A stretch of DNA of 59,619 nucleotides from positions 1-59,619 of the forward strand of contig JAJDBP010000005.1 in assembly GCA_029261295.1 (NCBI GenBank). Reading direction: 5' to 3'. The DNA comes from Nitrospirales bacterium (lineage in GTDB: Bacteria; Nitrospirota; Nitrospiria; Nitrospirales; UBA8639). The notes under the pieces were generated by a model. It did no database searches. It was not told where the DNA came from and worked only from the letters and a program-made list of their open reading frames with translations. Shown piece by piece: positions 8,190 to 59,619 of the stretch. Position 1 is the stretch's first letter; the number at the start of each line of letters is the position of its first letter. The translations under genes and the position numbers were made by a program.

Positions 8190-8245
<56 letters not shown>

Positions 8246-8303
8246 TTATTTCAATACATATTTTTTGAATATTATATTATGAATGCGGACGCTCGTCTTG
8301 AAC

Positions 8304-8514
8304 GGGATGGAATTGTACTTTCCATCCCATAATCCGACGCCTGCTGTTCGGCCTCGTGGCGGACGCTCTAATCAACAGCGGGCCTTGTCTGAGTGGAACG
8401 AGTTGGCCCGTTCCTGATTTGCGTCCACCTCTTATTGAAGCCGAACTGGGCGTCAATGGTTTTGGGGCCTTTTGCCGAAACAAAAGGGCCTCGGCTGCCG
8501 GGCCGAAACCCGGC
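8304..8514. repeat. Dispersed structured repeat, copy A
   Basis: The same sequence recurs in inverted orientation at 59107-59293, and in shortened form at 10269-10297. Shared blocks include tccgacgcctgctgttcgg, ggacgctc-aatcaa and agccgaactgggcgtcaatgg. Two adjacent hairpins close the element: 8466-8490 with loop ccgaaa, and 8497-8514 (gccggg/cccggc) with loop ccgaaa. The first stem differs almost completely from the other copy yet still pairs. An extra hairpin (gggatggaa/ttccatccc, 8304-8328) lies at the left edge. It sits between two tRNA-Lys remnants. Open frames crossing it look like by-products of the repeat rather than genes. Confidence 0.8.
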
Positions 8515-8584
8515 AACTCCCAAGAAGACCAAAAATGTTCGATTGAAATATATAGAGTGGGATTTAAATGGATGGCCTATGGCC

Positions 8585-8635
8585 TGGGGGAATGTACAGG
8601 GATTGAACCTGTGCCCTACTGATTAAGAGCTGGTT
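8585..8635 (-). pseudogene. Second, degenerate 3' part of a tRNA-Lys(CTT) gene
   Basis: On the minus strand the sequence has a perfect T arm (acagg, loop ttcaatc, cctgt), an acceptor 3' strand ACATTCC with discriminator C and CCA, and an anticodon loop with CTT. The anticodon stem is no longer paired (ACCAG against TCAGT), and everything 5' of it is missing. Its acceptor strand differs from the fragment at 8190-8244, so it derives from a different tRNA gene or a foreign copy rather than from duplication of that fragment. Confidence 0.75.
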
Positions 8636-10268: not shown

Positions 10269-10297
10269 TCTGACGCCTGCCGTGGCGAAACCCGGCA
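10269..10297. repeat. Internally deleted copy B of the dispersed repeat
   Basis: Within the 250-base AT-rich gap upstream of the Fic gene, a short block joins the left end of the repeat (tctgacgcctgc) directly to its right-end hairpin region (ggcgaaacccggcaat). About 170 bases present in copies A and C are missing. The terminal hairpin is imperfect here (gccgtg against cccggc). The rest of the gap shows no gene. Confidence 0.6.
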
Positions 10298-10358
10298 ATC
10301 GTAGGAAGGGAAATGATTGGGACGCTACAAGGGGTAAATTTCTGACCTGCAGTTTAAA

Positions 10359-32483: not shown

Positions 32484-32572
32484 CTCTTTCTTCGGTAACC
32501 CGGCTATCAGAAATTCTGACCCGTGGCTTTGCGTCCCCACTTCACAATGGGTTTGCCTTTGTCGGAAAGAGG
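32484..32572 (-). promoter_or_regulatory. c-di-GMP-I (GEMM-I) riboswitch aptamer
   Basis: Read on the minus strand, the 89 bases contain the hallmark blocks in order: GGCAAACC, then GGGACGCAAAGCC, then GATAGCCGGGTTACCG. They are closed by a P1 stem (CTCTTTC at the 5' side, GAAAGAG at the 3' side). The variable hairpins (CCCATTGTGAAGTGGGG and GGTC...GATAGCC) pair. It ends 48 bases before the FN3-protein ATG. Between them a GGGGCCCCTT...AAGGAGG arrangement could mask the Shine-Dalgarno, pointing to translational control. Whether ligand switches expression on or off is not determinable. Confidence 0.92.
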
Positions 32573-59032: not shown

Positions 59033-59106
59033 TTAAGAAAAGCTCCTCCTCTAAGCAAATCCCCTTCAGCCTTTTTCTTCCAAGCCTTTTACATAGAGTA
59101 GTATTT

Positions 59107-59293
59107 GCCGGGGTTCGTCCCGGCGGCCGATCTACTTTCGTTTCGGCGAAAGTAGACAAAGCCATTGACGCCCAGTTCGGCTTTTAAGATGGCTGGACGA
59201 AAATTTTTGTAGGGTGGACAAACTCGCTTCGCTCAAACAATGCCCACTCTTGATTTGAGCGTCCATCCAGGGACCCGAACAGCAGGCGTCGGA
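59107..59293. repeat. Dispersed structured repeat, copy C (inverted relative to copy A)
   Basis: On the opposite strand this reads like copy A at 8304-8514. Hairpin gccggg/cccggc is at 59107-59124. Next is a perfect 10-bp hairpin tctactttcg/cgaaagtaga (59131-59156, loop CCGAAA on the minus strand). Then come the cattgacgcccagttcggct block and the cgaacagcaggcgtcgga block at the right end. It follows recR by 75 bases. Confidence 0.8.
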
Positions 59294-59498
59294 CGATGGG
59301 AAATGGAAATTTCACGAAAAAAAAGGATGATTAGGACTTTTGTGGGCTACACCGTTCAGTCAACAACCTATGAAGAATCTAGGTCCAGTGGCTCAGATAT
59401 GATCTTACAGACAAGACCAGATTTGGTCGTGCGGGTATCCAATAGCGGACATTCGTTTGACCCGAATTCCACTTTCGAAACCGTCCGCTGCCGACCCA
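59294..59498. other. Intergenic sequence between repeat C and the IS element
   Basis: No supportable gene. Inverted repeat agcggac (59444-59450) and gtccgct (59483-59489) lies close to the IS end; it may be part of another dispersed sequence or the target region of the insertion. An open frame from 59240 through this stretch is composed of repeat sequence and is not counted as a gene. Confidence 0.4.
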
Positions 59499-59499
59499 G

Positions 59500-59619
59500 G
59501 CTGTGTGAAAACTCAGCAAGCAGGTATACTCCACCTTTCTAAGGGAGGTGTGAGTGATGAGCGGATTTATTCAAGGCGACGATCGCCACCAAGCGACCTT
59601 ATTCCCCGAACGATTAGAT
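59500..59619 (+). mobile_element. Left end of an IS1182-like insertion sequence, cut by the window
   Basis: A terminal-repeat-like start (ggctgtgtgaaaactcagca at about 59500) precedes a transposase start at 59557 with AAGGGAGGTG upstream. The right end, target duplication and most of the transposase lie outside the window, so boundaries are approximate. Confidence 0.6.
59557..59619 (+). CDS. Transposase N terminus (IS1182/DUF772 type), partial
   Basis: Visible residues MSGFIQGDDRHQATLFPERL match in style the N terminus of IS1182-family transposases, which begin with a short FIxGxDRxQxxLxPExLDDY stretch before the DUF772 domain. A GTG three bases before the ATG is an alternative start. The gene continues beyond the window, so intactness is unknown. 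Confidence 0.65.
   Translation, partial: MSGFIQGDDRHQATLFPERLD

Follow-up and report, generated by a model that had tools for sequence, protein, structure and literature searches.

Several described systems share features with the element reported here. Intrastrand triplex repeats (Holder et al. 2015, PMC4666352) are abundant hairpins with a neighbouring pyrimidine tract in parallel orientation to the purine arm, and intergenic dyad sequences of Haemophilus are mentioned, in a passage of PMC4144887, as linked to the mobility of gene loci. The latter offer a lead, at the level of description rather than of compared published sequences, to a probable described relative. The element was found in a 59,619-nt stretch of a Nitrospirales bacterium contig (JAJDBP010000005.1), the whole of which is referred to below as the window. 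An initial annotation had placed two copies of a dispersed repeat at 8304-8514 and 59107-59293; both copies are real, and their borders and strands have been revised (Table 1). Direct reading of the sequence bore out the loops described for the terminal hairpins, namely ccgaaa twice in copy 1 and ccgaaa with acgaac in copy 2, as well as a pair of stems that differ between the copies and still pair (ggccttttg/caaaagggcc versus tctactttcg/cgaaagtaga), a gccggg/cccggc stem common to both, and the presence of a third, internally deleted copy.

Table 1. Copies, remnant and structural parts of the element in the window.
Feature	Position	Strand	Remark
Family A element, copy 1 (183 nt)	8334-8516	+	structured strand is +
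Family A element, copy 2	59105-59292	-	3' side towards recR end
Remnant: element 5' end fused to hairpin 3, interior deleted	10270-10298	+	gacgcctgcc-gtggcgaaacccggca
Copy 1 long imperfect hairpin (P1 GACGCC/GGCGTC, P2, P3, P4)	8336-8454	+	covarying helices 1-4
Copy 1 hairpin tip TTGTCTGAGTGGAACGAGTT (family consensus TGTTTGAGCGNAGCGAGTT)	8385-8404	+	
Copy 1 hairpin 2 including pseudoknot-1 tract	8458-8490	+	stem 8465-8474/8481-8490, loop CCGAAA 8475-8480
Copy 1 hairpin 3	8491-8514	+	GCCGGG 8497-8502 / CCCGGC 8509-8514
Copy 2 hairpin 2 (TCTACTTTCG/CGAAAGTAGA)	59131-59156	-	
Copy 2 tip TGTTTGAGCGAAGCGAGTT	59221-59239	-	

The two window copies gave folding z-scores of -5.5 and -5.3. The mini-stem at the tip of copy 1 carries a compensated change, with GT/AC replacing GC/GC; GGTTTTGG (8458-8465), upstream of hairpin 2, can pair with the hairpin-2 loop as pseudoknot 1, and TCGG at 8491-8494 pairs with bases 8503-8506 of the hairpin-3 loop as pseudoknot 2 (helices 7 and 8). 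An open reading frame overlapping copy 2 (59240-59542) had no Pfam match. The flanks of copy 1 hold features of their own: a perfect 9-bp hairpin, GGGATGGAA-TTGTAC-TTCCATCCC, lies just upstream at 8302-8326, outside the family consensus, and two diverged tRNA 3' halves (TCTTAATCAG...GGTTC.ATCCCT; 8190-8243 and 8590-8635, minus strand) stand in the same orientation on either side, with no complete tRNA around these flanks; the halves look like remnant attachment-site duplications. Elsewhere in the window, a c-di-GMP-I-GGC riboswitch match was recorded at 32490-32566 (minus strand, 72 bits).

The family A element is about 185 nt long. Its long imperfect hairpin, made up of P1-P4 and ending in the tip TGTTTGAGCGNAGCGAGTT, precedes two further hairpins, hairpin 2 with the loop CCGAAA and hairpin 3 (GCCGGG...CCCGGC), each of which can form a pseudoknot. 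Across 79 copies of family A, bases paired in 94.1% of cells, compared with 30-46% in slid-partner controls, and changes on both sides occurred in 32 of the 54 pairs, compared with a shuffled mean of 16.9. The covariation that had been noticed between two copies thus held at 79 copies, with 268 double-change cells versus 80 in shuffles, and no shuffle out of 500 was as high on any measure. An all-against-all column scan that assumed no structure recovered P2, hairpin 2 and the pseudoknot-2 pair; the last of these, which joins the hairpin-3 loop to the bases before the stem (GC in 46 copies, CG in 15 and TG in 4), was among the top covarying pairs. The tip is a mini-hairpin of the form GC-GNA-GC, in which a compensated change to T-A was present in four copies (helix 5). 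In DNA, GNA loops and adjacent tandem G-A pairs are stable, and they can also form in RNA. Summed over the 54 pairs, G-T mismatches outnumbered A-C mismatches (166 versus 53, over cells that are not independent), and a count by position gave 32 versus 11 (P = 0.002); this excess indicates that the selected fold is that of the strand with the CCGAAA loops. The selected strand acts as RNA or as single-stranded DNA, and the data favour neither. Hairpin 2 is preceded by a pyrimidine tract that might form a triple helix with the purine arm of this hairpin.

Parts of this fold extend well beyond the source lineage, since the tip, the free stem beneath it and the first pseudoknot recur across phyla. 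In 102 distinct loci among the matches listed, all four Watson-Crick pairs occurred at each of 8 positions of the stem under the tip; G-T and A-C mismatches in this cross-phylum stem, scored symmetrically, stood at 8:9. A second hairpin followed the tip hairpin in 59 loci, again among the matches listed, and the complementarity of its loop to upstream sequence averaged 4.37 nt, compared with a shuffled mean of 3.38 (maximum 3.64). Pairing of at least 5 nt between loop and upstream sequence was found in 26 of these 59 loci versus 7 for the downstream control, and the paired words changed together (CTTGAT/ATCAAG, CTTGACC/GGTCAAG, TCGCC/GGCGA, TAGCC/GGCTA, GTGGCC/GGCCAC). The Haemophilus copies are intergenic inverted dyads with an identical tip, often arranged as inverted pairs 177-234 bp apart; those of type N combine a common body with differing hairpin-2/pseudoknot modules, and in one case a copy present in one species was missing from the orthologous site in another. 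Collectively, the column scan, the controlled pair counts, the strand asymmetry and the cross-phylum covariation strongly support the selection for structure that the initial annotation had proposed. We also looked for its stated counter-reading, a fragment of a known coding gene family, and rejected it, because indels ignore the reading frame and paired positions compensate each other.

In the source genome, BLAST returned 42 matches to the element, about half of them full length and the rest mostly confined to the 3' 60 nt. All genomes of the genus that were searched were positive, with up to ~120 candidate places per genome and a copy number from tens to ~100. These 42 matches, the genus-wide positives and the fold z-scores together show that the element is not a product of chance. 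Two further genera of the family matched, as did the Nitrospirales bacterium NPIRA02 record, which holds a close relative, while no element match was found outside those genera in the remainder of the order. The exact tip motif was present in 7 of the 198 genomes of the phylum, three of which carried 17 to 38 tip copies compared with 0-1 for the reversed pattern. A sister family, B, has the same tip and 3' domain as family A and a different 5' part, and its whole length can be aligned with elements of Variovorax and Extensimonas, at a mean column identity of 62%. The tip pattern further occurred at more than 115 loci among the matches listed for the GTDB collection and in 80 viral-contig stretches; matches in the plasmid collection were limited to two plasmid-class records, and the phage and E. 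coli collections gave none. The Rfam 15 covariance models produced no gathering-score match at the element and nothing credible at E values up to 5, and no published description of it was found in the open-access literature, a search that covered few subscription journals. The elements are a large non-coding repeat family with a precise knotted fold, kept in several bacterial phyla. Repeats that share one fold from Nitrospirales to Betaproteobacteria, Haemophilus and Bacteroidota, and that border exchanged cassettes of defence genes, would make up a class of structured repeat not recognised before.

Comparison of orthologous sites revealed turnover of the elements themselves. At the recR site of the window, a near-identical element in genome G005 has a hairpin-2 stem altered on both arms, G001 carries a third version of the element, G007 a family B-like one and G010 none. 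At the ispA site, four species carry family A, two carry family B and one another form; in one species hairpin 3 is all that is left, fused to the sequence that lies beyond the next element in G000. A chimaera (L036:13577) joins the 5' half of A to the 3' half of B at the tip. Together with the module differences in Haemophilus, the recR, ispA and chimaera observations indicate that the 3' module turns over, by recombination or by sequence evolution, more quickly than the remainder of the element. Inversion was considered as the source of the A/B slot swaps and rejected, as the flanks on both sides are conserved in G005. Other repeats were encountered at or near these sites. At the slyD site (L255-L258), a different dispersed repeat (GTTGAAAAAGTCCGCCAGCGGCGTTCTCG...CTTTTTGAACATCCTGC) fills the slot in element-less species, and one species has both; some copies (L029:5602, L036:7904, L239:2273, L260:1132 and L264) have short insertions (CCCTTCGACA...GGACAGGC, also GCATGGTGCGTCTCGA) nested in either their tip loop or their hairpin 2; and in L239 a sequence adjoining the element, between it and recR (CCCTCGCCC...GGGAGAGGG...GGGTGAGGG), resembles the intrastrand triplex motif TM_ECO.

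The copies are intergenic and rarer between divergent genes. Relative to tandem neighbours they were antisense in 26 cases and sense in 14, and 30 lay between convergent versus 12 between divergent genes; orientation was balanced in the GTDB set as well (27 versus 24 among the matches listed). In two complete genomes they cluster: neighbouring copies lie less than 5 kb apart in 25 and 16 cases compared with ~2 expected, and 35 of these 41 pairs are co-oriented. An early hint that neighbours pair outwards was rejected because the arrays are mainly co-oriented, and a replication-strand bias hinted at by a partial list was rejected after clusters were collapsed (10:11 and 15:14). Orthologous arrays in two species (G009 and G018), whose flanks are 88-93% identical, differ in cassette order, which is P,Q,R versus P,R,Q in one array and S,T,U,V versus T,U,S,V in a second; a HigBA block is confined to G009, and two blocks sit in different arrays ~200 kb apart between the two species. 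All of these blocks keep a single orientation relative to the elements, and in most cases the ends of conserved blocks fall at copies or within ~200 bp of them, while the long syntenic stretch between the arrays contains no copies. Between the two species, the blocks that separate copies, which include toxin-antitoxin, peptidase and nuclease genes, have been added or lost, put in another order and transferred from one array to another. The array contents comprise HigBA, type I restriction, Mrr, methylase, REase-ARP, peptidase and peroxidase genes, joined in the source-genome arrays by type ISP restriction, ParE-like and nucleotidyltransferase-like genes. DUF1456 genes were seen as recurrent cassettes beside elements of different species (L036:7115-7600 and L445:14684-15169). 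Copies within arrays are homogenised, with best matches that are discordant along their length, so that exchange joints inside the elements cannot be located. Elements at the borders of such exchanged defence-gene cassettes would offer a way into the question of how defence islands can be built up in the absence of integrases.

Co-oriented arrays whose intervening gene blocks vary between species are what one would expect if the elements were targets of recombination or points of exchange. On balance, we lean towards the reading that the elements are non-autonomous repeats with a selected fold, spread by a factor acting in trans, which serve as exchange points for cassettes. The folded strand, as a transcript or as single-stranded DNA, would be recognised by this factor, which would have copied and spread the element; its copies would then become points at which recombination, driven by the same factor or by ordinary homologous recombination, could swap cassettes and element halves. 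Homologous recombination between homogenised copies could alone account for the shuffling, and it is possible, at appreciably lower probability, that the elements are old and passive structured repeats (host transcript or DNA-topology elements, for example) shuffled by RecA-dependent recombination with no element-specific factor. The homogenised and discordant array copies, the chimaeras and module swaps, and the lack of any recombinase found near the arrays agree with passive repeats, which nevertheless do not by themselves explain the spread to ~100 copies, the strict co-orientation within arrays or the invariant tip across phyla. Against the favoured reading, no linked mobility gene was found: unbiased ORF clustering of neighbours around the copies showed no enriched family and no linked transposase, and neither the array proteins scanned individually nor the 25 most frequent families in a bulk array-protein scan included an integrase or transposase. 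Site comparisons, Haemophilus included, likewise gave no clean case of an unoccupied site with a target duplication. We hold it doubtful that the arrays represent a cassette exchange unrelated to integrons, in which the widely distributed fold, with its invariant GNA-capped tip and two pseudoknots, would be recognised by an enzyme of recombination or copying that has yet to be described, and the arrays would accumulate and shuffle defence and toxin-antitoxin cassettes.

The remaining candidates are known classes of element. A cis-acting RNA (a 3'-UTR stabiliser, terminator or riboregulator) would accord with the strong fold, the one-strand tolerance of G-U, the intergenic position and the scarcity between divergent genes, but the copies show no sense preference, no Rfam model matches and whole gene blocks travel with the elements, which makes this reading unlikely; a sense 3'-UTR role was rejected for want of orientation support. 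Integron attC sites, or an integrase-less attC cluster (CALIN), are a very unlikely identity: although the co-oriented arrays, the shuffled toxin-antitoxin and restriction cassettes and the folding of one strand recall them, the GTTRRRY/RYYYAAC core is not conserved, its nearest counterpart, helix P2, varies freely (GTTCGG, GTCTGG, GACAGG), and the size of the element and its two 3' pseudoknots differ. Movement of folded single-stranded DNA by a Y1 (RAYT) transposase, as in a REP/REPIN-like system, is disfavoured and highly improbable. The repeats are intergenic and palindromic, in Haemophilus often in inverted pairs, and the source genome contains four Y1_Tnp matches, yet these loci (L233-L236) lack the tip and hairpin-2 motifs, and a 185-nt element with pseudoknots is unlike a REP. 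Moreover, Y1_Tnp (PF01797) has no match in the complete genome G018 despite its ~100 candidate copies, is reduced to a decayed fragment in G013 and was not found in G113, G022 or G228. RAYT/REPIN was therefore rejected, Y1_Tnp being neither linked to the elements nor universal among the genomes that bear copies.

Set beside these systems, our elements resemble MITEs in being short, non-coding and present in many copies, but they have no terminal inverted repeats, as the 5' CCGACGCC and 3' CCCGGCA are not inverted copies of each other, and no parent element was found for them. With REP/REPIN sequences and their RAYTs they share an intergenic position, palindromic form, high copy number and occasional inverted pairs, while differing in their length of ~185 nt, long hairpin and two pseudoknots, and in that copy-rich genomes are without a Y1 transposase. 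Hairpin 2 has a pyrimidine tract of the kind seen in intrastrand triplex repeats, but the motif studied there, TM_ECO (CCCTCNCCC...GGGNGAGGG), is a different sequence, and the main text of that study does not mention pseudoknots (PMC4666352). In chromosomal integron arrays and CALINs, too, folded sites that point the same way flank mobile cassettes in which toxin-antitoxin and restriction genes are common, and, as with attC sites, the cassettes between the elements keep one orientation when they move; the elements differ in having no conserved attC core and no integrase found nearby, and in that members of the family are also found singly and dispersed.
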